A stretch of DNA of 64,000 bases from Oscillospiraceae bacterium. Its GTDB lineage: Bacteria; Bacillota; Clostridia; Oscillospirales; Ruminococcaceae. Position 1 is the stretch's first letter. Every line of letters begins with the position of its first letter. The notes beneath the pieces are model-generated. The model was not told the DNA's origin. It did no database searches and was given only the letters and a program-made list of their open reading frames with translations. Shown in pieces: positions 2,822 to 58,676 of the stretch. A program made the translations under genes and the position numbers. The DNA lies in NCBI GenBank assembly GCA_015067145.1, contig SVNA01000001.1:1-64000 (forward strand). The letters run 5' to 3'.

Positions 2822-3499
2822 ATGGCAAAGATTTTAAGCAGATTTAATGATATCCTCAAAGCAAACATTAACGAATTGCTGGATAAATTTGAAGATCCTT
2901 CCAAAATGATTGATCAGTATCTCCGCGATATGATGGAAGATCTTGCAGAAGTAAAGGAAGAAACAGCTGTTGTTATGGCAGAAGAAACAAGAACAAAACG
3001 TGCTGTTGACGCTAATGTTGCAGAAGTAGAAAAATATCTTGCTCTTGCCCAGAAAGCTCTCGAAGCAGGTAATGAGAATGATGCACGTGTATTCCTTTCC
3101 AAAAAGCAGGAACTTGAAACAGCAGGTGCAGCACTCCATACAGCATACGCAGTTGCTCACGAAAATGCAATGAAGATGCGTCAGCTTCATGATAAACTTA
3201 CAAATGATATTAATGAACTGAAAGCGAGAAGAGAAGCTATCAAAGCAAAAGTTTCTGTTGCTAAAACACAGGAAAAGCTCAATCAGTTTGATGACCATTC
3301 TGACGCTGCACAGGATGCAATGGCTGCATTCAAACGTATGGAAGAAAAGGCAGATCAGATGCTTGATAAAGCAAACTCTATGGCAGAACTCAACTCCAAA
3401 CCTGTTGATGAAGCCAAAGCACTTGAAAAGAAATATGCAACAAGCTCTCCTTCAGTAGAAGATGAACTTGCTGCACTTAAAAGCAAAATGGGCTTATAA
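2822..3499 (+). CDS. PspA/IM30 family membrane-stress protein
   Basis: The product (225 aa) is an almost wholly alpha-helical coiled-coil protein. It starts MAKILSRFNDILKANINELLDKFEDP, the amphipathic N-terminal helix and following segment seen in PspA, LiaH and Vipp1, which bind and stabilise the cytoplasmic membrane under stress. I prefer ATG 2822 over the track start at 2816 because the AAAGGAGG site ends 8 nt before 2822 but only 2 nt before 2816. It has its own promoter and terminator. The following TPM-like membrane gene is a plausible functional neighbour, because PspA-like genes often sit beside membrane genes. Confidence 0.9.
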   Translation: MAKILSRFNDILKANINELLDKFEDPSKMIDQYLRDMMEDLAEVKEETAVVMAEETRTKRAVDANVAEVEKYLALAQKALEAGNENDARVFLSKKQELETAGAALHTAYAVAHENAMKMRQLHDKLTNDINELKARREAIKAKVSVAKTQEKLNQFDDHSDAAQDAMAAFKRMEEKADQMLDKANSMAELNSKPVDEAKALEKKYATSSPSVEDELAALKSKMGL

Positions 3500-4909: not shown

Positions 4910-6118
4910 TTATAAAAATTCTTCAGGAATATATTTATATATTATTTTTTCCATAAATTCAATAGAAAATACATCCTGAAAAGCTCTTACACCATGTATG
5001 TTTGCCAGTTCCTGTGTGTAATCTTTCAAGAGATAGTTTCTTACATTTGAATAGTTCGCATCATAGTGTGTAACAGTAGGTACAAACTTAGGATTTTCAA
5101 TAGATATTTTATAATTATTATCCAGATCTGTATATGTTTTAACTATATCAAACTGAAACATACCGCCCAGCATTGTATTGGCTGTAGACTGTGCAGAAAT
5201 AAAATTGCCAAGAGAATAACAAACAATAGTTTTGTGACCGGTTTCAGGGTTTTCTATCCATTCCACGGTCTGGATAACATGTGGATGTGTACCGATAATA
5301 GCGTCAACACCAAATTCATTGAGTTTCTGTGCAATCTCGTGCTGTTCGGGAATGGTCTGGTTGGTTTCTTCATAACCCCAGTGACAGCTTGCAATAACAA
5401 CATCTGCATTTTCCTTTGCAATTTTAACCTGACGTTCAATAGTTTCATAGTCATTGGTAAAAACTATTTTAGGACAGCTTTCATCAGATATAGATAATCC
5501 GTTGGTATACATTGTATAAGCAAGGAAAGCTACTTTTACTCCGTTTACATCAAGATATTTGATTTCCTTTTCATCATCACCTGTGTAGAAGCCGAAATAT
5601 GCGATATTATCAAACTGACTCCAGAAATCAAGTGAAGAACGTATGCCTTCAGCTCCCATATCATAGGAGTGGTTGTTGCTCATGGAAATTGCATTAAAGC
5701 CCATATCAAGAACCTGATATCCCATATCTGTCGGCGTTGAAAAACGCGGATATGTAGCAGGGCCGAAAGCATCATTTACCAAAGTTTCCTGGTTTATAAA
5801 CTTGATATCAAAATCATCAAAATAGTATTCTATATTTTCGTATGGATAGCTGAAATCATATCCGTCACCATTTGCTCTGTTTGCCGCCTGCATATACAGC
5901 ATACCGTGGATAAGATTATCGCCTACACCTACAAAACTGACAGTTTCTGATGGTTTAATAGTAGGTTCAGGAGTTGGGGTTGCTTCGGGCACAGCTTCTG
6001 TTGTGACGAAAACAACACTCATAGCATCCCAGCTGAAAACAGCTTTGTAAAACACAAAAGCCAGAGAAACAGCAAGAAAAACTGATAAAGCGATTATTAT
6101 ATTTTTATTCTTTTTCAT
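4910..6118 (-). CDS. CapA-family (poly-gamma-glutamate type) metallophosphoesterase-fold protein
   Basis: The product (402 aa) has one N-terminal membrane anchor (about residues 8-25), then a Pro/Thr-rich linker, then the PGA_cap domain. Recognised motifs in order are GVGDNLIHG, ETLV, MSNNHSYDMG, SCHWGYE, GTHPHV and YSLGNF, the hallmarks of the CapA family. The domain therefore probably faces outside. In Bacillus CapA is needed for poly-gamma-glutamate capsules, but most CapA-like proteins, this one included, have no capBC partners nearby, so the substrate is unknown. It is transcribed divergently from the GH2 gene. Confidence 0.88.
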   Translation of the reverse strand: MKKNKNIIIALSVFLAVSLAFVFYKAVFSWDAMSVVFVTTEAVPEATPTPEPTIKPSETVSFVGVGDNLIHGMLYMQAANRANGDGYDFSYPYENIEYYFDDFDIKFINQETLVNDAFGPATYPRFSTPTDMGYQVLDMGFNAISMSNNHSYDMGAEGIRSSLDFWSQFDNIAYFGFYTGDDEKEIKYLDVNGVKVAFLAYTMYTNGLSISDESCPKIVFTNDYETIERQVKIAKENADVVIASCHWGYEETNQTIPEQHEIAQKLNEFGVDAIIGTHPHVIQTVEWIENPETGHKTIVCYSLGNFISAQSTANTMLGGMFQFDIVKTYTDLDNNYKISIENPKFVPTVTHYDANYSNVRNYLLKDYTQELANIHGVRAFQDVFSIEFMEKIIYKYIPEEFL

Positions 6119-6257: not shown

Positions 6258-8174
6258 ATGAGACAAGTTGTAAATTTAAACGAAGGATGGATGTTTTCCA
6301 AAGTAAACTCTGCATGGGAAATGGTGGATTTTCCACACACATGGAATGGTTATGACGGTCAGGATGGCGGAGATGACTATTTTCGCGGCACCTGTATGTA
6401 TTCTAAACCTGTACGAAGAGGATTGTTGCCAAAAGCAGACAGATATTATATAGAGTTTCAGGGCACAAACTATGATGCCAGTTTATACATAAACAGGGTA
6501 GAAGTTGCATCCCATAAAGGTGGCTATTCCACATGGCGTGCAGATATTACCGATGCACTTCGTCAGGATGAAATATCAACTATGCTGATTAAGGTTGATA
6601 ATAAAATCACTGACGAAATGTATCCTTGTGAAATGGACTTTCCAAACTATGGCGGCGTATACCGTGATGTGAATATTATCTGTGTAAACGAAAGCCATTT
6701 TGACCTGGAATATATGGGTTCACAGGGCATCAAAGTTACTCCTGCAATAAAAGGCAAGGATGCTGATGTTGAATTTGAAGTATTTACAAAAAATATCAAA
6801 CCAGAACAGAAGATAATCTGTGTTGTAAAATCAGCAGAAGGTTTGGTTGTATCAGCAAGAGAACTCTCTGCCGACGAAAAAAAGGCTATTCTTACGATAG
6901 AAAATGTACATCTCTGGAATGGTGTTAAAGACCCATATCTTTATACAGCAGAAGCATATATTGCTGAAAATGGCGAAATCCTTGATAATGTATCGGTAAA
7001 ATTCGGCTGCCGCAGTTATCGACTTGATGCTAATGACGGTTTTATCCTCAATGGAGAAAAATATCCGCTTTATGCAGTGGCACGTCATCAGGATAGGTGG
7101 GTAAAGGGAAATGCATTGTCACCGGAAGATATGGATGAAGATATGGCACTGATAAGAGAGATTGGTGCAAATGCAGTACGCCTTGCCCATTATCAGCATC
7201 ATCAGTATTTCTATGACCTTTGTGATAAATACGGTCTTGTTGTGTGGGCAGAAATTCCATATATAAACAAGCATGTGCCAAGCGCAAAGGAAAGCACAAG
7301 AAACCAGCTTAAAGAACTGATTGTTCAGAACTATAATCATCCGTCCATAATCGTATGGGGCCTTTCAAACGAGTTAAGTCTTGAAGATAATTATGCAGAT
7401 ATGACGGAAAATCACAAGTATCTTAACGAATTGGCTCACAGTCTTGACCAAACCCGTATTACAGCTATTGGCAGCATTGCTTCAACGGCTGAAAATGACC
7501 CGTTTATCCGCATTACAGATGCAGTAGGGTACAATCTCTATTATGGCTGGTATGGCGGAAATATCGAAGATAATGGCCCATGGCTTGACAATTTTCACAA
7601 GCTTAATCCTGATATGCCGATTGGTGTTTCAGAATATGGCTGTGAATCTCTCAACTGGCACAGTGGCAATCCTGTTGCATGGGACTTTACCGAAGAATAT
7701 CACGCACATTTCCATGAAGAACTTATCAAACAGCTCTACACCCGTGATTATCTGTGGATAAGAATCTGCTGGAATATGTTTGACTATGCAGCGGATGGCA
7801 GAAACGAAGGCGGTATGCCGGGCCAGAACCGCAAAGGTCTTGTTACAATCGACCGTAAATACAAAAAGGATGCATTCTATGCATATAAAGCATGGCTCAG
7901 TGATGAACCTTTTGTACATATCGGGGGCAAACGTTATATAGACAGACACGAAGAAATAGCTAAAGTTACGGTTTATTCCAATCAGCCAGAAGTTGAACTG
8001 TTTGCAAACGGAGTATCCCTTGGCAAACAGACAAGTGATGTGCACTTCTTCTATTTTGACGTTCCAAATAATGTAAAAATAACACAGCTTAAAGCAATGG
8101 CAGGCGAATGTGAAGACACAAGTGAAATTCATAAAGTATCACAGCCAAATCCAGCATATATATTTAAAAAATAA
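6258..8174 (+). CDS. Glycoside hydrolase family 2 (beta-galactosidase/glucuronidase-like)
   Basis: This 638-aa GH2 enzyme has an N-terminal jelly-roll sugar-binding domain, an Ig-like domain and a TIM barrel. The acid/base glutamate is in GLSNELS (Glu372) and the nucleophile in GVSEYGCES (Glu459). There is no signal peptide, so it should act in the cytoplasm on imported oligosaccharides. The exact sugar (beta-galactoside, glucuronide or mannoside) cannot be read from motifs. ATG 6258 follows a GGTGA site. The track start (TTG 6246) adds four residues. It stands alone between its own promoter region and a terminator, with no transporter beside it. Confidence 0.92.
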   Translation: MRQVVNLNEGWMFSKVNSAWEMVDFPHTWNGYDGQDGGDDYFRGTCMYSKPVRRGLLPKADRYYIEFQGTNYDASLYINRVEVASHKGGYSTWRADITDALRQDEISTMLIKVDNKITDEMYPCEMDFPNYGGVYRDVNIICVNESHFDLEYMGSQGIKVTPAIKGKDADVEFEVFTKNIKPEQKIICVVKSAEGLVVSARELSADEKKAILTIENVHLWNGVKDPYLYTAEAYIAENGEILDNVSVKFGCRSYRLDANDGFILNGEKYPLYAVARHQDRWVKGNALSPEDMDEDMALIREIGANAVRLAHYQHHQYFYDLCDKYGLVVWAEIPYINKHVPSAKESTRNQLKELIVQNYNHPSIIVWGLSNELSLEDNYADMTENHKYLNELAHSLDQTRITAIGSIASTAENDPFIRITDAVGYNLYYGWYGGNIEDNGPWLDNFHKLNPDMPIGVSEYGCESLNWHSGNPVAWDFTEEYHAHFHEELIKQLYTRDYLWIRICWNMFDYAADGRNEGGMPGQNRKGLVTIDRKYKKDAFYAYKAWLSDEPFVHIGGKRYIDRHEEIAKVTVYSNQPEVELFANGVSLGKQTSDVHFFYFDVPNNVKITQLKAMAGECEDTSEIHKVSQPNPAYIFKK

Positions 8175-11315: not shown

Positions 11316-11822
11316 ATGGTGAATAAAAAATTCAACAATAAAAAAATTATTAATGCCGAAAAATATATTTTTTTATTGCTTTTGCTAAGCTATATAACAG
11401 GTATATGTATAGGAAGCTTTTTTGTTTTCAGCAATAATGAAAATGCAAAGTTTACAAATGTACTGATATCTCAAAAGGATTTTAAAGTCTTACTGTATTT
11501 TATTATAGCATTGTTACTTAAATATTCCGGCGTATTAAGCGGCATGCTAAGTATTTTACCATTGTTTTTAGGAATTCAGAATGCAGCAAACTATAGTTGC
11601 TGTATATTGAATATATCTGATACAAAATACAAAACAGCGTTTACAATACTCAAAGATACGGCGATTGTAATGCTGCTTGTATTTTACATAATCATTATAA
11701 TAAATCAGATAATTAATAAGAAATATATCTTAAAAAAAGATATAAAATATTTTACGGTATATTTTATTGCGGCAACAGTTATAATAGTGTTAGGAAATAT
11801 ACTGAAAAAATTTATTTTTTAG
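11316..11822 (+). CDS. Small multi-span membrane protein, possibly SpoIIM-like
   Basis: The product (168 aa) is Lys/Asn-rich at the N terminus with about five hydrophobic segments, and I do not recognise it with certainty. The opening ILLLLSYITGICIGSFF-type helix and the LLLKYSGVLSGMLSILPLFLG helix recall the layout of stage II sporulation protein M, and spoIIM commonly lies next to xerD in endospore-formers. Against this, it is shorter than typical SpoIIM and lacks an obvious signature. It follows the TIGR04086-like gene by 13 nt and its last 11 nt overlap the convergent recombinase gene. Confidence 0.5.
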   Translation: MVNKKFNNKKIINAEKYIFLLLLLSYITGICIGSFFVFSNNENAKFTNVLISQKDFKVLLYFIIALLLKYSGVLSGMLSILPLFLGIQNAANYSCCILNISDTKYKTAFTILKDTAIVMLLVFYIIIIINQIINKKYILKKDIKYFTVYFIAATVIIVLGNILKKFIF

Positions 11823-12813
11823 GTTTTTTAAAAGTGGCAAGGGGAGAAGACTTTGCTGCTTTTTTTATTGCCTCGTCAGAAATATGTGTATATATTTCGG
11901 TTGTAGATACATGTTCATGACCTAAAATTTCTTTCAGGGCAAGCATATCAGCATTGCCGGAACGATATAACAGCGTTGCTGCCGTGTGACGTAGTTTATG
12001 GGCGGAAAATCCCATCTGACTTAATCCTGCACGCTGAAGACATTCTTCGACAACCTGTTCAATACGTCTTGCAGACATACGTTTTTTAGTTCTTTTTGAT
12101 ATAAATAAAGCTGGCTCGGAAGCAGGGGAAACAATGGTATTTCTGACAGCTAAATAATCATTTACAGAAGATACACATGCATCGTTAAGATATACAAATC
12201 TTTCTTTGTTGCCTTTACCGATAATCCTTAAGGTATCATTATTGATATCTTTAATATTAATTCCGGCCAATTCCGACAAACGCATACCACAGCTTAAAAA
12301 TAATAGAATAATGCAATAGTCTCTTTCTGCAAAATTACTTTGTGTATTATTTAACAATTCGATACTTTGTTCTAAAGTAAGATATTTAGGTAATCTTTTT
12401 TTCATTGATGGCATTTCAATATGTTCAGCAGGGTTGTGTTGCAGCTGATTGGTTTTTACTGTTAAATATTTAAAATAACTGCGGATACTGCTGATTTTAC
12501 GTGAACGGGATGCTGCTGAGTTTTTTCGTTCATTGGTAACAAAATATAAAAACTCCAATATTTCTGACTGTGTAACTTTTGAAATAAATTCTAAATCAAT
12601 ATCAGAAATTGATACATCGTTAATAATATTATTATCAATGCAGTTATTACGTTTCTGAATAAGAAATTTAAAAAACAGCTGCAGGTCAATAAAATTTCCT
12701 TCAACGGTTCTTGGAGACAAACCTTTGATAGTCTGTGAATAATAAAGAAATTCTTTTAACACACTTGGTGCATTAGAATAATCAGAATAGATTTTTGCAG
12801 AAGTATTTGGCAT
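11812..12813 (-). CDS. Tyrosine recombinase XerC/XerD family
   Basis: This 333-aa site-specific recombinase has an N-terminal SAM-like core-binding domain (about 10-115) and a C-terminal catalytic domain. The full R-K-H-R-H-Y set is visible: CGMRLSELAG, GKGNKERFV, AHKLRHTAAT, LGHEHVSTTEIYTHIS. It is the size and type of chromosomal Xer recombinases that resolve chromosome dimers, and there is no phage or transposon context. AAGGAG sits 8 nt before the ATG. It is the first gene of the long - strand half, converges with the + strand genes, and has a perfect inverted repeat 45 bp upstream. XerC versus XerD cannot be decided. Confidence 0.88.
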   Translation of the reverse strand: MPNTSAKIYSDYSNAPSVLKEFLYYSQTIKGLSPRTVEGNFIDLQLFFKFLIQKRNNCIDNNIINDVSISDIDLEFISKVTQSEILEFLYFVTNERKNSAASRSRKISSIRSYFKYLTVKTNQLQHNPAEHIEMPSMKKRLPKYLTLEQSIELLNNTQSNFAERDYCIILLFLSCGMRLSELAGINIKDINNDTLRIIGKGNKERFVYLNDACVSSVNDYLAVRNTIVSPASEPALFISKRTKKRMSARRIEQVVEECLQRAGLSQMGFSAHKLRHTAATLLYRSGNADMLALKEILGHEHVSTTEIYTHISDEAIKKAAKSSPLATFKKPKK

Positions 12814-12857
12814 ATTATAAACTCCTTATATGTTAAAGTTAATGCTTTCATCTTCTC

Positions 12858-12887
12858 AATTTCGCTAAATTTTTATTTAGCGAAATT
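12858..12887. repeat. Perfect inverted repeat upstream of the Xer gene; dif-like candidate
   Basis: AATTTCGCTAAAT and ATTTAGCGAAATT form perfect 13-bp arms around TTTT. Read as a Xer site it is 11 + 6 + 11: ATTTCGCTAAA / TTTTTA / TTTAGCGAAAT. The right arm shares about 7 of 11 bases with the XerD-arm sequence I recall from E. coli dif. No T run follows on either strand, which argues against a plain terminator. A regulatory operator for the recombinase gene is the main alternative. Confidence 0.5.
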
Positions 12888-12897
12888 ACTACAATAA

Positions 12898-12941
12898 AAT
12901 TATAGCACACTCACCTGAATTTTTCAAGTAAATGTGCTATT
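12898..12941 (-). terminator. Probable terminator of the surface-glycan operon (after fucU)
   Basis: ATAGCACA and TGTGCTAT form an 8-bp outer stem enclosing a weaker inner pairing. On the - strand it is followed by ATAATTTTATT. It lies 84 nt beyond the fucU stop and would separate the glycan operon from the recombinase gene. Confidence 0.5.
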
Positions 12942-13476: not shown

Positions 13477-16400
13477 TTAGATTAATTCTGCATTCCATAC
13501 ATCAACATCAGCATCCTGAAACACTTCTTTCAGTCTGTTGTGTACATCGGTTTTACTTACACCTTTTTTCAAAATTGCCTGCAGAAATCCACCGCCGCCT
13601 GCACCGCTGACAAGACGACCGCATATTAGATCATCAATGCTTTCATAGATCTGATCAATCAAAGTGTTTGTACTTCCTTCATCAATCATTTTTGAAAGAC
13701 TCCAATGATAATCCATCAACTCAGCAAAATCATCAATATGACCACGTTCAAGTTCAAATTTCATCAATGCAGCTACGCGTTGAATTTCGTTTAGAGCATA
13801 TATCGAATCGGGTTCATTGCCAATATATCTTCCGACAACATCTCGCAGCAGATTTCTGGCCAATCTTCTTTGACCTGTATATATCAGAACAAACCTTTCA
13901 TTTAATTCTTTTCTTGTTTCTTCTGAAATATCAATGTGTTTTACTTTTATATTCTGCTGTATTCCCGGCATAGTTGTAATATATTTTATACCTTCAGACA
14001 ATCCGCCAACCTGATCTTGCCATCCGCCACCGGTTGCCATAATCTGCTCCATACAAAGCACATGGCTGTATAAGTCTGCCTCGGTGTATTCTATGCCCAT
14101 AAATTCAAATATAGCTTTTACACAAGCACCTGAAAGTATGCTGCTCGTTCCAAGTCCGCTGCCTTTAGGCACATTGGTAACCTCAGAATTCAGTTTGAAA
14201 CCACCACCGATACGCATAAAAATCTCTTCAAGGTTACCGCCGATGTTTGGGATAATTCCACATGCGATCAAAGCAGCCTTCTGCAAGGCAAATGGATCAT
14301 AAGGGTCACCTGTGTTCTGTAATTCTTTCAAATTATCAAACTCGCCATAAACATCCATATCCTTACTGGAGAAAATGATTTTATGTTCAGCGATTTTTTC
14401 CAGGGTTACCTCTACAGGCATTTCACCATTTAAAAGAATTGCTGAATTTAGGACAGTACCGCCATTTTCGTTACAATAAGGAGGTGTATCACTCCATCCT
14501 CCACCCCAGTTTACACGAAGAGGTAATTTTACAGTATGTTTGTCGATAATAATTTTACAGTTATCATTAAACTTTAAATTGTTAATAGAGCTGTCAAGTA
14601 TAGTATTCTGAATAATTTTAAAGCATTCAGAAATGTGAGCTTCACCTTCCTGGCTGTTTAATGCATTTCCCAAATAATAATGTAGTCTTAATGCTCTGCT
14701 GTAATCAGTATTGTCAATGGTATTGTTAAGCCATTCTTTTTGTATTTTTGACAAGCTTTTTGTATTAATAATGTTTTGGGATTTGGTACATACTTCCCTG
14801 CTGTCAATCAGATTTGACAGTTTGTCCATACATACCAGTTCCTGCATTCTGTTATCCCAATCGATAATAGCTACAGGGTCTGCATCACAAAATCCTGACT
14901 GTAAGGATTTTCTTTCTGAAGTAATCCAACTGTTAATATCACCTTTATTCTTTATGATATTATACAGGTTTATAGCTGCAGTAACTGCTTCATCAATAGT
15001 ATCGCACACCGGATAAAGTTTTGCATTCCAGATTGAATGTTCTTCGTTACCCCACAATACATCTTCTGATATACCATAATCAGTCAAAAAACTGGTAAGT
15101 GATACTCCAAAAAGTTTACAATCATTGTCAAGGGTGTCTTTTGGATTATCTTCTATTCCCCATATTCTCACAACAAATTTTCCATCACGCTGTTTTAATC
15201 CATGAAGAATAACATCGGATGGAATGTTTTTATTGTATATATCGACATAAGAGATTATACAGTTGTTTCCAATAACTGAATTTCCGTGCACATAGCTTAC
15301 TTCAAGATAACTGTTTTCACCTACTAATGCATTGTCAGACAAAATACTGTTATATCCTGCTATATTATTTTTTATACTGCTGTTAACCTGTCTGTTCCAG
15401 CCCAAAACAGAATAGTCAGATATATCTTTAGACATAAGAGAAAGTATCTCTTTGGATGTTCCAAAATGAATAAATTTAGCAGGAGCAAGACGCAACAACT
15501 TAAGATTGTAGCAATTTAAAGCATTCCACACTTTTTTTCTTGCAACAAGCAATTCATCACTGTATTCCCCTTCAGGTTTTTCATTATAAAATTCTTCAAG
15601 GGTAGCATCTGTTGCCAATGGATAAATAAAATCCCCATACAATGATAATCTTACTTTATCATTTACATAGCTGTTAAATTTTTCGGTGCAAAAACATCCA
15701 TTTTCTGATATAAGCGAATACAGAGCTTTAAGTATATCTTTAGAAAAAATTACAGCACCGGTATCTATATCTACTTTATTGTATTCGTTAACGGCTCCGA
15801 ATTTAACAAGTGAATCCACAGACTGCTTATGTAAAAAACGTTTTACATTTCCGTATTCTCCACGCAGAAACACACCATGGTTCTTTCCTGTTTCAACATC
15901 TTCTTTGAAAGAAATTGCAGCTGCATTTTTACCGGAAAAATCAATCTGCAACGGATTAAAGAAAAGCAAAACATCGCCGGATAACAACAGCATACCCTCT
16001 TTTATTCTTGAAGGTATTGATGCTGTAGAAATCATAAATTCATCAAATAAAGTAGACAATCTACCGTTATCAAGTTGATGCGGTACAGGCGAAAAAAGCT
16101 TGCCTAAAGCAGAATACTGAGGTACTCGCTTGCTGTCCCCGCCGCTGTGAATAACAAGTATACGAAGATTTGAGAAATCATTTTCTTCTAATCCTTTTTC
16201 TTTTTGTTTTTCAGCTATATATCTGATAACAGATAATGTTGCACCACCAGAACCCACACGTTTACCGTCCGGATCAGGTATCACAGCAAAATGCGTACGC
16301 AAAGGCAACAGACCTTTGGTTTTGCGTTCATTAATCTGAACTGTAAAACCTTCTGCCTGCTGCTCATTTGATGCCGTAAGAATTATATAATCCCAACAAG

Positions 16401-16488
16401 GAAAATTTGCATTGGAAACAGAACGAATATAGTCATCCTGGGCATCTTTATACGATTGAGCTAAAAAGAGGTTTGATTGAGTTGGCAT
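13477..16488 (-). CDS. fkp: Bifunctional L-fucokinase / GDP-L-fucose pyrophosphorylase
   Basis: At 1003 aa it makes GDP-L-fucose from free L-fucose: phosphorylation to fucose-1-phosphate, then transfer of GMP. The N-terminal fucose pyrophosphorylase domain has the nucleotide motif VGSGGATLS (about 78-86). The C-terminal GHMP-kinase domain (from about 645) has LPLRVNWGGGWSDTPPY and the ATP loop PKGSGLGTSSILSG, with GAGGGGF near the end. This is the architecture of Bacteroides fragilis Fkp. ATG 16488 lies 6 nt after GGAG. The track start is a TTG within that site. fucU follows after 12 nt. The pair supplies activated fucose, presumably to the glycan made by the upstream genes. Confidence 0.93.
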   Translation of the reverse strand: MPTQSNLFLAQSYKDAQDDYIRSVSNANFPCWDYIILTASNEQQAEGFTVQINERKTKGLLPLRTHFAVIPDPDGKRVGSGGATLSVIRYIAEKQKEKGLEENDFSNLRILVIHSGGDSKRVPQYSALGKLFSPVPHQLDNGRLSTLFDEFMISTASIPSRIKEGMLLLSGDVLLFFNPLQIDFSGKNAAAISFKEDVETGKNHGVFLRGEYGNVKRFLHKQSVDSLVKFGAVNEYNKVDIDTGAVIFSKDILKALYSLISENGCFCTEKFNSYVNDKVRLSLYGDFIYPLATDATLEEFYNEKPEGEYSDELLVARKKVWNALNCYNLKLLRLAPAKFIHFGTSKEILSLMSKDISDYSVLGWNRQVNSSIKNNIAGYNSILSDNALVGENSYLEVSYVHGNSVIGNNCIISYVDIYNKNIPSDVILHGLKQRDGKFVVRIWGIEDNPKDTLDNDCKLFGVSLTSFLTDYGISEDVLWGNEEHSIWNAKLYPVCDTIDEAVTAAINLYNIIKNKGDINSWITSERKSLQSGFCDADPVAIIDWDNRMQELVCMDKLSNLIDSREVCTKSQNIINTKSLSKIQKEWLNNTIDNTDYSRALRLHYYLGNALNSQEGEAHISECFKIIQNTILDSSINNLKFNDNCKIIIDKHTVKLPLRVNWGGGWSDTPPYCNENGGTVLNSAILLNGEMPVEVTLEKIAEHKIIFSSKDMDVYGEFDNLKELQNTGDPYDPFALQKAALIACGIIPNIGGNLEEIFMRIGGGFKLNSEVTNVPKGSGLGTSSILSGACVKAIFEFMGIEYTEADLYSHVLCMEQIMATGGGWQDQVGGLSEGIKYITTMPGIQQNIKVKHIDISEETRKELNERFVLIYTGQRRLARNLLRDVVGRYIGNEPDSIYALNEIQRVAALMKFELERGHIDDFAELMDYHWSLSKMIDEGSTNTLIDQIYESIDDLICGRLVSGAGGGGFLQAILKKGVSKTDVHNRLKEVFQDADVDVWNAELI

Positions 16489-16536
16489 AGTTGTCTCCAA
16501 AATATATCAATAAATTTGTTTTAAATATTTTAGTTA

Positions 16537-17594
16537 TTATCTTCCCCAAATAATTTTATTTATGATTATATATCGCTTAGTTTTTTCTATTATTATATTA
16601 ATGCAATAACAAAGTATAATTGCTATTAAAGGACATATAATCCAATCAAATATTACTACGTCAAAAGTTAAATAATTTACATTCAGAAATCCTACAAGTT
16701 TTCTATAGACTTTAACACCAATTATTTCGACTATAAATCTTTGTAATACATAGATTTGCAATGTATTTTTCCCAATATTAATTATTAATGATATAAATTT
16801 AGTATCTTTAAATTTGTTATAAACATATTTTGAAATGTTAATTATTGCGAAACATCCACAAAAATCTATAATATATCGATATATATTTATGTATATTTGA
16901 TTTTGAATACCATAATAAGATTTAAAAATATTAATACCAGAAATATAAATATAATGCTTTTTTTCAAAATGAAACAACATTACGATAAAAATAAGATTTA
17001 TTAAATATCTTAGCTTATATATAATAATATATGCATTATTTTGATATTTTTTATAATAAAAACCTACTATGAAAAAAGGAAACATATATATATTTAGATC
17101 CGAATTGTGGATTAAAGATAATATACTAACACCAGCAAACAAATAAATAAATATATTATTAATTTTGAGTTTAAATATAATAGCAGTTATTAAAGAACAA
17201 CAAAATACACTCCACAAAAACCAAAGATGTGTTAAATATTCCATAAAATTTAATATTTTTATAGAATTATTAAAATACTTTTGTAATTAAGCAATATAAA
17301 TTCAATAATTCCCCATAAGCACATTGGTATGGCAACGCCAGTCATTTTCGATTTTATTATATTAGATATATTTTTCTTATTACAAGATTCATAAAATAAA
17401 TACCCACTTATCATTATAAAAAGAGGCATATGAAAGCTGTAAATGAAAATAAAAGCTTTATCTTCAAAAAAATCCCATTGACCAAGTGTTAAATATTGAA
17501 TACAATGTCCCCACAATACAAAAAAAATAGAAAGACCTTTTAAAAAATCTATAAAATCATTGCGTGCTTGTTTATTTTGTATATTATATTCCAT
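16537..17594 (-). pseudogene. Acyltransferase 3 family protein, split by a frameshift
   Basis: Two adjacent frames together make one OafA-like membrane acyltransferase. The first (17594-17259, 111 aa) has the N-terminal NDFIDFLKGLSIFFVLWGH motif. The second (17244-16537, 235 aa) continues at THLWFLWSVF, the usual mid-protein motif, and supplies the remaining helices. The second frame is open back to about 17286, and adding one A to the CAAAAG run at 17278-17283 joins them as ...LNYKKYFNNSIK..., about 352 aa, the normal family length. Such enzymes add acetyl or similar groups to surface sugars. It is either a recent pseudogene, a sequencing error, or a switchable gene. Confidence 0.85.
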
Positions 17595-17627
17595 ATTTAT
17601 TATATTTTATCAAAAGATATAAATGTA

Positions 17628-19145
17628 TTATTTACCTAGACTATTTTTTATTGTTACAAAAATTTGTTTTTGTTCTTTTGTTCTGCCGTATACAAATAAA
17701 ATTAAAAGCATAATTATTAATTCACAACATATACCAGAAGCAATAAAATGAATCAAAGGATTTGTAATTACAATAAGCTTAACAATATTATTGCAAACAA
17801 CATAGATAATTAAAGTAACAATAATATAAATTATATTTTTTAACCAATATCTAATGTAGCTATACCTACTTAATTTAAAACAAGCCGAATATACGATATA
17901 ACTTCTGCCAAACCAAAAAATAATCTGGCTTATAACCGTACCAGTTAAAACACCGGAGATACCTACTATCTGCACAAGAATAATTGAGGTAACGATATTT
18001 GATATAGCACCTAAAATATCAATATTTCTTGCCTGTTTAAACATACCATATCCATTTATATAGTCAGAAGTAGAACTATGTACAATATGTATGTATAGGT
18101 CAATCAATAATAAAACAATTATGGATTGATTCATTATCATATCTGAACCTACCCACATAGTAATAAATTCATCTATTAATATTGAAACCGGAACAACAAC
18201 CATAATTGCTATAATATAGCGTATATGTGAGTATAGTAAAAAGCTTTCTTCTACCTTTTCTGTATCATCTTCATCAACAATATAATTGCCTATTATAGGT
18301 ATCATAGGGGATAATACGCTAAATATTAAACTTTTTAAACTTACAATAATTGTTGTATAGTTGGCCAAAAAACCCACTTTAATTGTGCTGGTGAAAATCG
18401 AAACTACCAAATTATCTGTTGAAGAATATATATATCCCGCAATTTTGCCAATAAAAATATTTTTTACATTACCAAAAATCTCTTTAAGTTTTCGTTTATC
18501 AATAGTTGATGAACAAAAATATGAATAATGTTTATTACAATATATATGTACCAAAATATTAGATGCATATACCTGAATAATTTTAAGAGCAAGATATATT
18601 ATATAATTTTTAACGTATATTATTGCTGCACATTGTAATATATTGAATACTATATTAATTATCAAATCATATGTTTTTGAAATATATTCTTTCTGGTCTG
18701 CATACAATAAAGTTCTTTTATATGCAAGAAAATATGTGCATGTAGAGGCACCTGATTGTAACAAGAAATAAATATATATTAAATTTGTTATTTCAATACC
18801 ATTTATAATATATTTTAACAAAGGTAAAGCTAAAAAAGATGAAACTATAAAGAATATCCCGATACATCTATATATTAATCTAAGAATATTCATTATTGAA
18901 TTTACTTCTTCAGTGTTTCCATCGTGTAATGGTTTATACAGACTGAAAATTATTGCACTTTGAAATCCCAGTTCAGCCAAAGAAAGTGTATTCAATATAG
19001 ACAGAAAGGTACTGTTGAGTGCCATCAGTTCTATACCTATATAATTTATAAATAAACTTCTTGTAACAAAAGTAAACAGTATATTTGTTCCTTGGCTGAC
19101 AAGTCCCATTATACTGTTTTTAGCAATTATTGCTTTTTTGTTCAT
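17628..19145 (-). CDS. Wzx-type polysaccharide flippase (MOP superfamily)
   Basis: This 505-aa integral membrane protein has about 12-14 hydrophobic segments and a MATE/MOP-like start (KKAIIAKNSIMGLVSQGTNIL). It is predicted to flip undecaprenyl-linked oligosaccharide repeat units to the outer face. I chose ATG 19145, 8 nt after AAAGG. The track start is TTG 19151. It lies between a GT2 gene and the broken acyltransferase. Base composition here is strikingly AT-rich compared with the housekeeping flanks, as is common for Wzx genes. There is no recognisable Wzy next to it. Confidence 0.88.
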   Translation of the reverse strand: MNKKAIIAKNSIMGLVSQGTNILFTFVTRSLFINYIGIELMALNSTFLSILNTLSLAELGFQSAIIFSLYKPLHDGNTEEVNSIMNILRLIYRCIGIFFIVSSFLALPLLKYIINGIEITNLIYIYFLLQSGASTCTYFLAYKRTLLYADQKEYISKTYDLIINIVFNILQCAAIIYVKNYIIYLALKIIQVYASNILVHIYCNKHYSYFCSSTIDKRKLKEIFGNVKNIFIGKIAGYIYSSTDNLVVSIFTSTIKVGFLANYTTIIVSLKSLIFSVLSPMIPIIGNYIVDEDDTEKVEESFLLYSHIRYIIAIMVVVPVSILIDEFITMWVGSDMIMNQSIIVLLLIDLYIHIVHSSTSDYINGYGMFKQARNIDILGAISNIVTSIILVQIVGISGVLTGTVISQIIFWFGRSYIVYSACFKLSRYSYIRYWLKNIIYIIVTLIIYVVCNNIVKLIVITNPLIHFIASGICCELIIMLLILFVYGRTKEQKQIFVTIKNSLGK

Positions 19146-19159
19146 TAACAATACCTTTC

Positions 19160-19969
19160 TTATAAAATATTATCCCAGTTTCTAGAGTTATATCTTTTTT
19201 TGTAATCCTTTAATTTTATGTAAAGTTTTTCTGGAATTAATTTTCTGCTAAATTTTTTAATCTCATTTTTTCTTATTAAATTATTATATTCTGTTTCTGA
19301 AATTAAATTATATTTATATCTAATATCATATGCTTCATCAATTAAATCAAATGCTTTTCTATCACTTATTCCACCTAAATTAAAATATGATATCACTTGA
19401 TTGATTTTTTTAAAGGATTTTTCATTTAAATATGCTTTTAAAGTAAAATCGTAGTCTGCACATATTTTATATGCTGTATCATATCTATAATTTTTCATAA
19501 GAATTGTTTTTATAAACATAGCTTGATGGCAAATCACCATTCTATTTTTCAAAGCATCAAGCTGATCATCATTTACAGATTTATTTATATTTTGTTTATT
19601 TTGATAGTATACAGCTATATCTCCATATAAAATATCAATGTCATTTTCATTTTTATTAACATTAGAAATAACAAAACCATCATATAACATGTCGCCAGCA
19701 TTCAAAAATATTACTCTGTTACCAGATGCAAGATCTGTAGCTATATTCATCGCATCATATATTCCATTATCTTTTTCAGAAACATATATAAATCTAAGAT
19801 TTTTTTCTAGTTGTAAACGATACTTTTCGATTATTTCATTTGTATTATCTGTAGATTTTCCGTCTTTAATTATATATTCTATATCTGCATTTTTCTGCAT
19901 CAACACAGACTTTATTGTTTTTTCCAAGTTATCTGCTGCATTATAGCAAACCGTTATAATTGTTATCAT
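19160..19969 (-). CDS. Family 2 glycosyltransferase
   Basis: The product (269 aa) has the GT2 nucleotide-sugar-binding start ITVCYNAADNLEKTIKSVL, then DGKSTDNT and EKDNGIYDAMN, followed by a LNAGD metal-binding equivalent of DXD. It is soluble and cytoplasmic and should add one sugar to the lipid-linked repeat unit. Donor and acceptor cannot be read from the sequence. It is clearly related to the other GT2 in the locus (22240-22923), with the same ITVC-N and NGIYDAMN blocks, suggesting duplication. Lies between acyltransferase and Wzx genes. Confidence 0.9.
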   Translation of the reverse strand: MITIITVCYNAADNLEKTIKSVLMQKNADIEYIIKDGKSTDNTNEIIEKYRLQLEKNLRFIYVSEKDNGIYDAMNIATDLASGNRVIFLNAGDMLYDGFVISNVNKNENDIDILYGDIAVYYQNKQNINKSVNDDQLDALKNRMVICHQAMFIKTILMKNYRYDTAYKICADYDFTLKAYLNEKSFKKINQVISYFNLGGISDRKAFDLIDEAYDIRYKYNLISETEYNNLIRKNEIKKFSRKLIPEKLYIKLKDYKKRYNSRNWDNIL

Positions 19970-20017
19970 TTATTTTCTCCTAGGATACGATTTTATCAAT
20001 TTAAAATATTTTTACTA

Positions 20018-21106
20018 TCAGACTCCTCTACCACCATTTAATAACGAAAAGATTTTCGGGAAATATCTGGTTAAAACTAATGCTGCTATAAAAATTACTA
20101 TCAACGTTAATATTGTACCACCATAAAAATTTATAAGATAGCTTATTAGATTCGTTGGTAATATTATAGAAAATATTTTATTAAAGATCTGTTGAACCGG
20201 TTTATGCATTGAGTATATATAAAATGAATATTTCATATAACTTCTAATATTCATTCTTCTGGAAAAATCCATAAAAATCCAAAAAGAACACATACCCAAT
20301 GTTCTGAAAACAAATGTAATAATTTTATATGTATAATTATTAAAATATAATAGTGTAATTGAGATTAAAAATAATGCTAAACTGCTAAGAATATAATGAT
20401 TATTATACTTATAATTCACAAAATTTGGATAATATATAGCAACAAATGCACCTAATGCGAAATAAAATATACTGTTAAAAGTGGTAAGCAAATTCAATAC
20501 ATTAGATGGATATGTAATGTTTGAGATTATAATCAAACTTATCATAAATATTATTGATAAGTTTTTGTTTTTTAACAAACAATATAATAGCGGTGAAGTG
20601 ATAACGTATATAAGCAAAATAAATACATACCAATATACTTCGTTGTATTTATAATAAAATATTCCAGCTAAAATATTAGTAATTGTAATTGAAGTATCAA
20701 CATTACCTGAAGTTAACCCTAATTTCCCTATTGTAATAAAAAAGATACACCATATACTGTTCCAACAAATAAATGGAATAAACAGGGTTTTAAATCTTGA
20801 TTTAAGTTTAGAATAATACCAAGACTTTAAACCTGCTAAGGAAACCAAGTTACAAATATTTTTAAACAATAAAAAACCTGATATTGTAAAAAACATAGGC
20901 ATTACAATATTAGTCGCCCATTTCCCTGATGCTTCAACAAAAAAATGAACAATATTCTCAAACTTAGTTGTAGCAACAAATCCTAAATAATTAAAAGAAT
21001 GATCTAAAACAATTATTATCGAAGCTATAAACTGTACAAATATAATTTTATTGCTTGTATCTTTACTAATTAAAAATGTATTACTTATTGATTCACATTT
21101 TTTCAT
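20018..21106 (-). CDS. Acyltransferase 3 family membrane protein
   Basis: This 362-aa protein has about 10 membrane segments. The N terminus FVQFIASIIIVLDHSFNYLGF carries the conserved His of the family, followed by MPMFFTISGFLLFK. These enzymes (OafA/WecH-like) acylate surface sugars. I take ATG 21106, which overlaps the stop of the upstream GT4 gene by 1 nt (TAATG), as the start. The track start 18 nt earlier is a GTG inside that gene. This is the intact acyltransferase of the locus, whereas the second one downstream is frameshifted. Confidence 0.88.
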   Translation of the reverse strand: MKKCESISNTFLISKDTSNKIIFVQFIASIIIVLDHSFNYLGFVATTKFENIVHFFVEASGKWATNIVMPMFFTISGFLLFKNICNLVSLAGLKSWYYSKLKSRFKTLFIPFICWNSIWCIFFITIGKLGLTSGNVDTSITITNILAGIFYYKYNEVYWYVFILLIYVITSPLLYCLLKNKNLSIIFMISLIIISNITYPSNVLNLLTTFNSIFYFALGAFVAIYYPNFVNYKYNNHYILSSLALFLISITLLYFNNYTYKIITFVFRTLGMCSFWIFMDFSRRMNIRSYMKYSFYIYSMHKPVQQIFNKIFSIILPTNLISYLINFYGGTILTLIVIFIAALVLTRYFPKIFSLLNGGRGV

Positions 21107-22188
21107 TATAATATTTCTTTCCACTTTTTCAGAATAAATTCATTTTCCAATTCCATGTGGTTAACTGTAGAATTATCGGAAAATACTTTTCTTTTTTCGG
21201 TGTTTTCAATAAGCTCAGCTATTTTGCTTGCCATCTTTTCAATATCAAACGGCTTAACAAGATATCCGTTTATTCCATCAACTATAATATCAGATGGTCC
21301 GCATGGAATATCAAAACTTATAACCGGCAATCCTGCTTTTTGAGCTTCAATCATAACCATACCCATCCCCTCTTGACGAGATGTTAGGACGAACATACTA
21401 TATTCAGAATATTTATTATTGATATCCGATGAATAACCTTTTAAATGAACATTGTTTTCGAGATTTAATTCTTTAATTTTGGTTTCAAGATTTAATCTCT
21501 CTGTTCCTTCACCGTAAATATCCCAGGACCATTCAGGATATATGTCAAATACTTTTCTGGCAATATCCATAAGCATATCAAACCCTTTTATATGAGCTAA
21601 ATATCCTACACTTATTATCTTCTTAGTATTTGAGTTATACTCATTTGTTCTTGCAGGATATTTACCAACATTATAAATCTGATATACCGGTGTATTTTTT
21701 TTGTAATTTATGTATTGATTAAAATCTTTTTTTGTAATCGTAACTATATTTTTAAAATATTTAATTGCTATTCGTTTTCCTATCCATTCCAGTCTGAATT
21801 TAGGACCAGCAAAAAAATTTAAATGTTCCCATGCAATAAATTTTGTCTTCGTTTTAGTAATAAGACCAGCTACGTAAAAAGGAATTACAAATTCCATACC
21901 TGAAATTATTATTGTATCAAAATTATGTTTATTAAAAAATTTTATCAATTCAGGTATTGCTGAAAATATTACGGTTTTTCTGGCATTGTCATTTATATTT
22001 AAAGTTAACAACTCAATATTGTCTGGCATATACTCAAAAAAAATATCTTTTTTTGTTATTTCTTTAATTGACAGAACAGATATTTTATAATTATTATCAC
22101 ATCTTAATTCACGGATTAAATTGAGAACTACCTTTACTATGCCACTTTTTATATCTGTACTTCCTATTGTAAAGCATATTCTTTTCAT
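21106..22188 (-). CDS. Family 4 glycosyltransferase (GT-B fold)
   Basis: The product (360 aa) has a retaining GT4 C-terminal domain: ISVGYLAHIKGFDML, NNVHLKGYSSDI, then SRQEGMGMVMIEAQKAGLPVISFD with the E-x7-E motif and GPSDIIVDGINGYLV. The N-terminal domain is degenerate and acceptor-binding, as usual. It probably adds an internal sugar to the repeat unit. It overlaps the acyltransferase start by 1 nt and follows a GT2 gene by about 50 nt. Confidence 0.9.
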   Translation of the reverse strand: MKRICFTIGSTDIKSGIVKVVLNLIRELRCDNNYKISVLSIKEITKKDIFFEYMPDNIELLTLNINDNARKTVIFSAIPELIKFFNKHNFDTIIISGMEFVIPFYVAGLITKTKTKFIAWEHLNFFAGPKFRLEWIGKRIAIKYFKNIVTITKKDFNQYINYKKNTPVYQIYNVGKYPARTNEYNSNTKKIISVGYLAHIKGFDMLMDIARKVFDIYPEWSWDIYGEGTERLNLETKIKELNLENNVHLKGYSSDINNKYSEYSMFVLTSRQEGMGMVMIEAQKAGLPVISFDIPCGPSDIIVDGINGYLVKPFDIEKMASKIAELIENTEKRKVFSDNSTVNHMELENEFILKKWKEIL

Positions 22189-22239
22189 GTTTTATCCAAT
22201 CCATCTTTTCAATTTTGTTCGTAAAGTAATTAAAATATA

Positions 22240-22923
22240 TCATTTATTTGAAATACATCCATATTTTTTCCAAATTTTAAATGTTTCTAAACGCGAATTA
22301 ATATTGGATGACATACCACCTAATGTGAAATCGGAGACTACTTCTGGAATTGGTGTAAATACAACTTCTGTATCCTTTTTCATTCTTAACATAAAATCAT
22401 AATCACTGGATGCTTTGTACTCAAGGCTAAATGCACCTTTATCGTCGTATAATTTTTTTGTAACAAAGCATGTTGGATGATTGATCATCTCTTCTTCCAA
22501 AAAATCATGATGATTAAATACAATGGACCTTAATTTTCCATCTTCTGTATAATTATTTTGCATACCATAAATAATTTCATATTTATTTCCGGAATATGCC
22601 GCATTAATTTTTTCTAAAGCATAATTTTCATAATAATCATCGCTGTTGATCATTCCTATCAAATCACCTTTTGCCAATGAAATACCTTTATTCATTGCAT
22701 CATATATTCCGTTATCTTTTTCCGATACAATCCTCATTTTACCGTCGAATAAAGGCTCATATTTTTTTACAATATTCAATGTGTTATCTGTAGACACACC
22801 ATCAATAATTATATATTCATAATTATCATAGGTTTGATTTAAAACACTTTTTATTGTTCGTTCTATTGTTTTTTCACTGTTAAAACATACTGTAATTATT
22901 GTAATAAAAATATTATTATTCAT
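22240..22923 (-). CDS. Family 2 glycosyltransferase
   Basis: This 227-aa GT2 enzyme shows ITVCFNSEKTIERTIKSVLNQTYDNYEYIIIDGVSTDNT, the NGIYDAMNKG block and INSDDYY as the DXD site. It is short, essentially a single catalytic domain without membrane segments. The ATG overlaps the neighbourhood of the upstream GT4 stop (4-nt gap). It resembles the GT2 at 19160-19969 closely enough to suggest a common origin within the locus. Sugar specificity is unknown. Confidence 0.9.
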   Translation of the reverse strand: MNNNIFITIITVCFNSEKTIERTIKSVLNQTYDNYEYIIIDGVSTDNTLNIVKKYEPLFDGKMRIVSEKDNGIYDAMNKGISLAKGDLIGMINSDDYYENYALEKINAAYSGNKYEIIYGMQNNYTEDGKLRSIVFNHHDFLEEEMINHPTCFVTKKLYDDKGAFSLEYKASSDYDFMLRMKKDTEVVFTPIPEVVSDFTLGGMSSNINSRLETFKIWKKYGCISNK

Positions 22924-22927
22924 AAAT

Positions 22928-24010
22928 TTATATCAAAAATTCCTCTACAGATTTATCCCAACTAAATTCTTTAAGAATTCTCTCTTTACCTGCTATACCC
23001 ATCAATTTATCAACTGAGACAATTTTTTCGGACATTTCTGCAACAGTATTACACAGGTACCCTGTAATAGTGTCATTTATTATTTCATCTGGGCCCGGTG
23101 CATGTATAGCAACAACAGGACATTCCTGATACATTGCTTCAAGAATACTCATACCAAATATTTCTTTATCATTAAAATTCACAAAACAATCCGCTGTCTT
23201 ATAATACTTATGAATTTCTTTGTTTGGTATTTTTTCAATATATGTTACTCTTTTGCTTATTTTTTCATCCCTGCTAATAATATTAATCAGCTGCGATTGC
23301 ATTTCTCCAGTACCGATAATAACAAGATAATAATTATCACTTAACTTGTTCAAAATTTCCAATGCACATAATGGTCGTTTATATTCCGACAGTCTACCTA
23401 CAAAAAGAACAATTTTTTTATCTTTTGGCAAATCAAGCTTTTCTCTTAACTCAAGCTTATCTTCATTTATTTCCGGAATAACTGACAAATCCAAACCGAC
23501 GGGAACAACTGTCGCGTTGTTGACACCTTTAGCTTTTAACTGTGACAAAACAGCTTGTGTTTTTACAAAAGTACGTGTTTTTTTAAAACACTTTATATTT
23601 CGTCTTGAAAAATAATCCAATATAAATTTTTTTAATATATTTGTACTGTCACTATAAAGTGTACCTACATAATTATAAAAACTGATATTATGCTTTTTAC
23701 AAAATTTCATAACATATGGAGCATATATCTGATTATCTGAATCCAGATGTACCAAATCAAATTTTTCTTTTATAAGAAAATCAATGTTATAAAATGAATG
23801 CACTCCAAAAGCTTTTGCTGGGATATACATAACTGTAATCTGCTCGGACAGTATTATTCTTTGCTCTGAATCAATATCTTTTTGGGGATATACAATCAAT
23901 ACAGTATTCCCTTGTCTAGCATATGCTTTTGCAATTCCAACTTCTTGACTGTTATAAAATCCAAGCTTACCGGAATTTCCGCAATAAAGTTCCAAAATAG
24001 CAATTTTCAA
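22928..24010 (-). CDS. Family 4 glycosyltransferase (GT-B fold)
   Basis: The product (360 aa) has the GT4 donor-binding domain: VPVGLDLSVIPE, LFVGRLSEYKRPLCALEIL, then NDKEIFGMSILEAMYQECPVVAIHAPGPDEII with E-x7-E. The start is a TTG 8 nt after GGGAG. No better in-frame ATG lies nearby. Lies between a DXD-type transferase and a GT2 in the glycan operon. The donor and linkage are not predictable here. Confidence 0.88.
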   Translation of the reverse strand: MKIAILELYCGNSGKLGFYNSQEVGIAKAYARQGNTVLIVYPQKDIDSEQRIILSEQITVMYIPAKAFGVHSFYNIDFLIKEKFDLVHLDSDNQIYAPYVMKFCKKHNISFYNYVGTLYSDSTNILKKFILDYFSRRNIKCFKKTRTFVKTQAVLSQLKAKGVNNATVVPVGLDLSVIPEINEDKLELREKLDLPKDKKIVLFVGRLSEYKRPLCALEILNKLSDNYYLVIIGTGEMQSQLINIISRDEKISKRVTYIEKIPNKEIHKYYKTADCFVNFNDKEIFGMSILEAMYQECPVVAIHAPGPDEIINDTITGYLCNTVAEMSEKIVSVDKLMGIAGKERILKEFSWDKSVEEFLI

Positions 24011-41770: not shown

Positions 41771-41845
<75 letters not shown>

Positions 41846-41854
41846 ATATAAAAA

Positions 41855-41930
41855 TGGAGCGGGTTACGAGGCTCGAACTCGCTACCTCCACCTTGGCAAG
41901 GTGGCGCTCTACCAGATGAGCTAAACCCGC
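41855..41930 (-). tRNA. tRNA-Gly (GCC), copy 2
   Basis: GCGGGTTTAGCTC acceptor/D arm start, anticodon GCC in CACCTTGCCAAGGTG, TTCGAGCC T loop and encoded CCA, 76 nt. The sequence is identical to the copy at 42218-42293. Confidence 0.95.
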
Positions 41931-41947
41931 TTATTTTATTTTAAATG

Positions 41948-42023
41948 TGGTGCCTCCGGTCGGAATCGAACCAACGACACGGGGATTTTCAGTCCCCTGC
42001 TCTACCGACTGAGCTACAGAGGC
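41948..42023 (-). tRNA. tRNA-Phe (GAA)
   Basis: GCCTCTGTAGCTC start, anticodon GAA in GGGGACTGAAAATCCCC, TTCGATTCC T loop and encoded CCA, 76 nt. Cloverleaf pairs are complete. Confidence 0.95.
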
Positions 42024-42030
42024 ACACATC

Positions 42031-42107
42031 TGGCGACCCGAATGGGGCTCGAACCCACGACCTCTAGCGTGACAGGCTAGCGTTCTAACCAACTGAACTA
42101 CCGGGCC
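42031..42107 (-). tRNA. tRNA-Asp (GTC)
   Basis: GGCCCGGTAGTTCAG start, anticodon GTC in CTAGCCTGTCACGCTAG, TTCGAGCCC T loop and encoded CCA, 77 nt. A GUN anticodon makes it a queuosine target of the queA/tgt products. Confidence 0.95.
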
Positions 42108-42114
42108 ATTTGTG

Positions 42115-42190
42115 TGGTGGGAACAACAGGGCTCGAACCTGTGACCCTCTGCTTGTAAGGCAGATGCTCTCCCAGCTGAGCTATGCTCCC
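42115..42190 (-). tRNA. tRNA-Val (TAC), copy 2
   Basis: GGGAGCATAGCTCAGC start, anticodon TAC in CTGCCTTACAAGCAG, TTCGAGCCC T loop and encoded CCA, 76 nt. It is identical to the copy at 42312-42387. Confidence 0.95.
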
Positions 42191-42217
42191 ACAACTCTGT
42201 TTCCCTTTAAGAAACAA

Positions 42218-42293
42218 TGGAGCGGGTTACGAGGCTCGAACTCGCTACCTCCACCTTGGCAAGGTGGCGCTCTACCAGATGAGCTAAACCCGC
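42218..42293 (-). tRNA. tRNA-Gly (GCC), copy 1
   Basis: Identical in sequence to the tRNA-Gly at 41855-41930, including CCA. It lies second in the operon, between the two tRNA-Val genes. Confidence 0.95.
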
Positions 42294-42311
42294 TTATTTG
42301 CTGTCAAGACC

Positions 42312-42387
42312 TGGTGGGAACAACAGGGCTCGAACCTGTGACCCTCTGCTTGTAAGGCAGATGCTCTCCCAGCTGAGCTATGCTCCC
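42312..42387 (-). tRNA. tRNA-Val (TAC), copy 1
   Basis: Identical to the tRNA-Val at 42115-42190. It is first in the operon, about 20 nt downstream of the promoter. Confidence 0.95.
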
Positions 42388-58384: not shown

Positions 58385-58676
58385 AAATAAAAAACACCTT
58401 CCGCTGAATAATCAGCAGAGGGTGTTATATACACGGTACCACCTCTGTTTTGTGCACTCTTCGCAGAATACACCTCACAAAGTTTTAAACTTTTATACTG
58501 TAACGGGTATTGCCGTCACGGCCTACTGCTGTTTTCAGCCGTGCCGCTCAAAGCAGTAATTTCTCTTAAAAAGCCGGTCTTTCTCACACCTTACGAAAGC
58601 TCTCTTTGCCTGACATAATTTAAGATACTGTAGCTTGTCATAGCGTTTACATATTATATTTATCTGTTTTACAGAT
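58385..58676 (-). promoter_or_regulatory. T-box leader (tyrosine) upstream of tyrS
   Basis: The leader has the canonical T-box AGGTGGTACCGTGT (58431-58444) and, after it, a terminator stem CACCCTCTGCTGA/TCAGCGGAAGGTG with a T tract (58387-58426). CAGAGG just before the T-box can pair with CCTCTG to form the competing antiterminator. In stem I, AGCTACAGTAT offers UAC (58630-58632) as the tyrosine specifier codon, matching the gene it controls. Uncharged tRNA-Tyr should bind and allow readthrough. Confidence 0.93.

Follow-up and report, generated by a model that had tools for sequence, protein, structure and literature searches.

A perfect palindrome just upstream of a gene for an Xer-type tyrosine recombinase could be the site at which chromosome dimers are resolved, a regulatory element of the gene, or the attachment site of a mobile element. 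Such a pair lies in the window, the whole stretch of 64,000 nucleotides considered here, at the point where gene orientation switches. Chromosome dimer resolution has been described in the literature for XerCD, XerS, XerH, XerA and XerL, and a literature search, which was not exhaustive, found no description of Xer/dif in Faecalibacterium or the Oscillospirales, an order of abundant gut bacteria whose named relatives here include Gemmiger, Fournierella, Anaerofilum and Faecalibacterium. The evidence set out below makes it very probable that this bacterium uses the palindrome as its chromosomal dif site and that the adjoining gene encodes its single Xer recombinase.

The palindrome and its recombinase gene

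The features of the locus are the following.

11812..12813, minus strand: xer, a lone Xer-type tyrosine recombinase of 333 aa (open reading frame; PF00589)
12005..12813, no strand: maximum (plateau) of the cumulative GC skew of the window, the inferred replication terminus
12850..12856, minus strand: position of the one-sided flank, here AGAAGAT, a degenerate form of the relatives' consensus AGGGGAG
12858..12887, no strand: perfect palindrome with 13-bp arms
12859..12886, minus strand: dif-like site of 28 bp, ATTTCGCTAAA-TAAAAA-TTTAGCGAAAT, in the 11-6-11 layout of Xer sites
12876-12886, 12870-12875 and 12859-12869, minus strand: left arm, spacer and right arm of the dif-like site
12899..12927, minus strand: predicted sigma-70 promoter of xer, TTGAAA-17-(TG)-TATAAT
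12902..12940, minus strand: terminator-like hairpin after an RbsD/FucU-like gene, overlapping the xer promoter

The first-pass annotation had described a perfect palindrome of 11-6-11 geometry upstream of xer, and both lie exactly where it placed them. In full, the palindrome (12858-12887) consists of perfect 13-bp arms 4 nt apart, AATTTCGCTAAAT-TTTT-ATTTAGCGAAATT, and lies 44 bp upstream of the xer ATG. When the 210-bp intergenic region was shuffled 5000 times with its dinucleotides preserved, perfect 13-bp arms appeared three times. A search of the 1.8 Mb draft genome, which the annotation had proposed as a check, returned this copy of the site alone; single-recombinase Xer/dif systems possess such a single-copy site, about 28-31 bp long, in which inverted arms flank a short centre. 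By eye, the noted resemblance to the XerD arm of E. coli, with about 7 of 11 bases shared, is correct.

The catalytic R/K/HxxR/H/Y motifs of the recombinase are conserved in 14 relatives. Its best NCBIfam score is for XerC, at 209.8 bits against a cut-off of 335; the archaeal-type XerA model gives 175.9 bits (cut-off 220) and the XerS model 150.7 bits (cut-off 267), and the protein falls under the curated cut-offs of XerC, XerD, XerS and XerA alike. Of 198 genomes sampled across 20 families of the order, 186 encode a homologue at E <= 1e-50, almost always as a single copy. This order-wide XerC-type recombinase family, below every curated Xer cut-off, is new here.

The site probably marks the replication terminus

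Genes converge at xer as the annotation had observed, mostly on the plus strand to the left and on the minus strand to the right, with seven tRNAs also on the minus strand; the gene at 4910-6118 (minus) is the one clear exception on the left. Within the window, cumulative GC skew reaches its maximum at 12005 and holds that level as far as 12813, inside xer; the skew is +0.082 to the left of the site and -0.181 to the right. Stretches of 20 kb flanking the orthologous site, less where a contig ended early, were compared in 21 relatives. The skew dropped from left to right in all 21 and its sign flipped in 18, and in three genomes the change lies some tens of kb from the site; none of ten control positions 200 kb away showed a flip. 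The sign change at the site that the annotation had asked for is thus seen both in the window and in most relatives.

In three long assemblies the site lies roughly opposite dnaA, about half a genome off: G047 (complete, 3,756,698 bp; dnaA at 131, site at 2,048,766), G249 (complete, 2,991,239 bp; dnaA at 2,701,646, site at 1,121,858) and G307 (a 3,029,664-bp contig; dnaA at 3,012,516, site at 1,488,273). A position at the terminus and skew switch, as expected of a single-recombinase Xer/dif system, is therefore found across the 21 relatives and in complete genomes. FtsK-gamma is encoded in 13 of the 13 genomes checked. The annotation's candidate terminus with an adjacent dif is supported, since all the refuting conditions it had named were checked and none of them was found, and can be refined: the site would serve a lone recombinase rather than canonical XerCD.

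One recombinase or two

It could be supposed that xer is the XerC partner in an ordinary XerCD/dif pair and that XerD is missing because the assembly is incomplete. XerC is indeed its best curated match, and families f2, f3, f6, f7, f11, f20 and others of the order possess a XerD-like gene, often convergent with and adjoining the xer orthologue, at a distance of 82 bp in G331. Of 118 genomes sampled from the order, 54 have such a gene scoring at least 290 bits. The window's own genome contains one Xer match, and being a metagenome-assembled genome (MAG) that is 83% complete, it could lack a second xer from its assembly. Against this, the four other genomes of the genus, 96-100% complete, have one Xer each, as do all five with the window's own included. 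By similarity to the window protein, each of 15 Ruminococcaceae genomes, the five of the genus among them and many 95-100% complete, has one close homologue and no second, XerD-like one; five of the 15 also encode remote, integrase-like homologues at about 30% identity. A canonical XerD-like gene of at least 290 bits is found in none of 14 sampled Ruminococcaceae genomes, where no match exceeds 233 bits (XerD cut-off 329.6), so that the two paralogues of canonical XerCD are not found together in these 14, and one Xer per genome, as in single-recombinase systems, is the rule.

Nor does a better canonical dif, which the annotation had suggested looking for, stand out above background. The Firmicute dif consensus with its unequal arms has no match within 3 mismatches in the window's own genome, and a looser canonical core pattern was no more frequent than its reversed control in 46 genomes. 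An incomplete XerCD system is thus very unlikely, and a lone recombinase remains the preferred reading. Symmetric sites are found also in other families of the order that possess a canonical XerD-like gene, often next door, so symmetry alone is no proof of a single recombinase.

In four genomes of other families (G331, G344, G389 and G419) the XerD-like gene is convergent with xer and some 60-110 bp from it, and in three of these the site is on the far side of xer from the XerD-like gene. The ancestral arrangement was presumably an xer-dif-xerD cluster, from which xerD would have been lost in the Ruminococcaceae.

Conservation, concerted change of the arms and a one-sided flank

All 26 of the closest relatives checked have a recognisable site 0-270 bp in front of their xer orthologue, within 3 mismatches in 23 of them, so the palindrome is kept beside xer as the annotation would have it. 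In the Ruminococcaceae as defined by GTDB, 130 of 299 genomes match the site within 2 mismatches, usually once per genome, compared with 1 for the reversed pattern. The arm variants TTTCGCTAAAT, TTGCACTAAAT, CTACACTAAAT, TTTCGCAAAAT and TTTCGGAAAAT are each mirrored in the opposite arm, and in many Ruminococcaceae beyond the 130 both arms are altered jointly, for example TTGCACTAAAT-NN-AAATTTAGTGCAA or CTACACTAAAT..ATTTAGTGTAG. No site was recognised near xer in some sampled genomes of the family.

Real dif arms are not usually perfect palindromes, an objection that the annotation raised against its own proposal. It falls if the site serves a lone recombinase, and it is answered by one Xer and no canonical XerD in the sampled genomes, by the covariation of the arms and by the symmetry of XerL/dif.

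A profile of 71 distinct sites has an invariant C and G at mirror positions, a TNNAAA spacer and, on the right side only, a conserved flank AGGGGAG..AAAA; its exact numbers are slightly biased by a small bonus that the site finder gave to G-rich flanks. The site is inverted relative to xer in L050, L055, L064 and L108, the last with a nearly symmetric spacer and an orientation read from the flank alone, and the flank moves together with the spacer. This suggests that AGGGGAG belongs to the site rather than to the xer gene. Such an asymmetric flank, conserved as far as the aligned sites indicate, is new here. A strand-biased k-mer search for FtsK-orienting motifs near the terminus was dominated by codon bias; AGGGGAG itself is leading-strand biased 168:22, as is also expected of Shine-Dalgarno-like words on leading-strand genes. 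Taken on the top strand, the G-rich flank would also be directed outwards from the site, in contrast to E. coli KOPS.

The same comparisons bear on whether the palindrome is instead an operator or RNA hairpin that regulates xer as a repressor site or attenuator, its position at the terminus being incidental. The strong predicted promoter, whose TGTGCTATAAT element recurs in relatives, lies just upstream of the palindrome, so that the site would sit in the xer 5' leader, and the palindrome folds well as RNA (z = -3.5). A regulatory element, however, would hardly be inverted relative to its gene, as in the four loci above, nor would it stand at distances between about 0 and 300 bp from the gene; substitutions in one arm only break pairs in L008, L009, L013 and L023, the conserved one-sided flank lies outside the hairpin, phages insert exactly in the site, and an Rfam search gave no match at the locus. 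This alternative is accordingly highly improbable, and a recombination site fits better.

Secondary site-like sequences occur in G001, G005, G008, G022 and G040, either on a different contig or at a distance of tens of kb, and no inovirus genes were seen near them.

Phages inserted at the site

Viral contigs scanned for the exact pattern included two inovirus-like ones that encode a Zot-type ATPase and a rolling-circle Rep and in which xer comes after the site; a protein-based scan added several more with Zot and Rep beside a symmetric site. Zot and/or Rep genes also lie upstream of the site in host loci, including L007, L010 and L012. The insertion can be followed by comparing an empty site (L008) with one occupied by a 4.6-kb element (L012). 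To the left of the empty site, 1.4 kb can be aligned with L012, where homology stops inside the left copy at 3164, and the xer-side flank follows a second copy at 7793. The left copy keeps its left arm, ATTTCGCTAAATAA, with a foreign right half, and the right copy is a full site. Elements with two ends were found in L003, L010 and L012, and L010 and L003 share the L012 pattern of a hybrid and a full copy. A microvirus prophage of Pusillibacter faecalis (capsid, ORF5, Rep) likewise has a hybrid left site and a full right site next to xer. These prophages of inoviruses and microviruses, small phages with single-stranded DNA that have repeatedly entered precisely at the site, are new here.

The absence of an integrase of its own, a location at dif and one full and one hybrid site, which together define an integrative mobile element exploiting Xer (IMEX), were found for the elements of L012, L010 and L003 and for the Pusillibacter microvirus, in an assignment where some element genes could not be named. 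A second att copy was not found in L007, L218, L220, L222 and L227. Xer-exploiting elements of Vibrio (PMC5357621), Xanthomonas (PMC5666396) and Legionella (PMC9765430) and the gokushoviruses of enterobacteria (PMC7062461) behave in the same way. Precise insertion of this kind lends indirect support to the view that Xer may recombine two copies of the site.

That xer and the site are instead the integrase and attachment site of a mobile element, near the terminus by chance, is scarcely credible: inovirus and microvirus prophages do abut the site, the xer gene does occur in IMG/VR contigs and related genes do occur in unannotated phage contigs, but 186 of 198 genomes, drawn from 20 families, have a single xer whether or not a prophage is present, the elements in occupied host loci lie wholly beyond the site as seen from xer, and the window has no phage genes nearby.

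Several further details of these loci deserve mention. The Pusillibacter prophage (L326, NZ_AP023421.1 230000-245000) lies between radA and the xer-linked site, on a 504-kb record that is labelled a plasmid yet carries chromosome-like genes (radA, YebC, xer). The 2.6-kb element of L003 (5314-7939), between a hybrid and a full site, has Rep as its sole recognised gene and is possibly a satellite or decayed inovirus. In L012 and L010 the inserted phage stands between xer and the conserved TGTGCTATAAT promoter, which in relatives lies ahead of the empty site, so xer expression in such lysogens must come from elsewhere. Finally, the IMG/VR inovirus contigs L034, L220, L222, L223, L224 and L226 stop no more than a few bases from the stop codon of xer, which suggests that, in delimiting the provirus, the host chromosomal xer was mistaken for a phage integrase.

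A probable single-recombinase module and its relation to known Xer systems

In the mechanism favoured here, an Xer dimer would most likely bind each site, one monomer on each identical 11-bp arm. The two sites of a chromosome dimer would synapse at the septum, with FtsK assisting and exerting control, and cleavage and strand exchange over the 6-bp spacer would resolve the dimer by recombination. The TNNAAA spacer together with the flank would give the site its polarity.

With canonical XerCD/dif (E. coli; CodV/RipX of B. subtilis) the present system shares the 11-6-11 geometry, the terminus, FtsK-gamma and exploitation by filamentous and gokushoviral phages, the enterobacterial gokushoviruses reportedly at dif. 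The canonical system differs in its two recombinases and unequal arms, and the present Xer scores below the XerC and XerD cut-offs.

The nearest precedent is XerL/dif of the Legionellales, likewise a single recombinase with perfectly symmetric dif arms and an intergenic site no more than tens of kb from the point where GC skew switches (PMC9765430). The Legionella site was found through a mobile element and experimentally proven, and that element, LME-1, leaves one intact and one altered copy (PMC9765430). The two nonetheless belong to different phyla and their arms do not resemble each other; the present site adjoins xer, an arrangement described for xerL in Coxiella only (PMC9765430), has 11-bp arms, a 6-bp spacer and a conserved one-sided AGGGGAG flank, and is exploited by inoviruses and microviruses. 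In streptococci and lactococci, XerS/difSL is also a single-recombinase module of the Firmicutes with an adjacent site at the terminus, but difSL has an 11-bp centre, where the present site has 6 bp, and unequal arms (PMC5357621). XerH/difH of Helicobacter and Campylobacter (PMC5357621) again combines a single recombinase with a terminus site, but the site is another and the sequence similarity remote (PDB 5jjv, E = 3e-16). With its own arm sequences and recombinase lineage and a one-sided flank, the present system is best filed among the single-recombinase Xer/dif systems as a distinct variant.

A wider scheme is tentative and, taken as a whole, somewhat more likely to be wrong than right. 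Xer modules throughout the order would derive from a linked xerC-dif-xerD cluster, with xerD lost in the Ruminococcaceae and several other families; the AGGGGAG flank would be a directional accessory element, such as a contact for FtsK or an accessory protein, that replaces the polarity of two unlike arms; and the site would be the main chromosomal entry for the filamentous and microviral phages of these gut bacteria.

The site offers a ready terminus marker for draft genomes and MAGs, and the order a natural series in which to study the transition from two recombinases to one. It also explains where the inovirus and microvirus prophages of these bacteria are located, and it warns that a host xer can pass for a phage integrase.

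Other observations in the window

A stretch of 25% GC at 16000-24000, after fucose-salvage genes, is probably a surface polysaccharide cluster. The seven tRNA genes are clustered at 41774-42387, all on the minus strand, and a T-box leader lies at 58415-58650.
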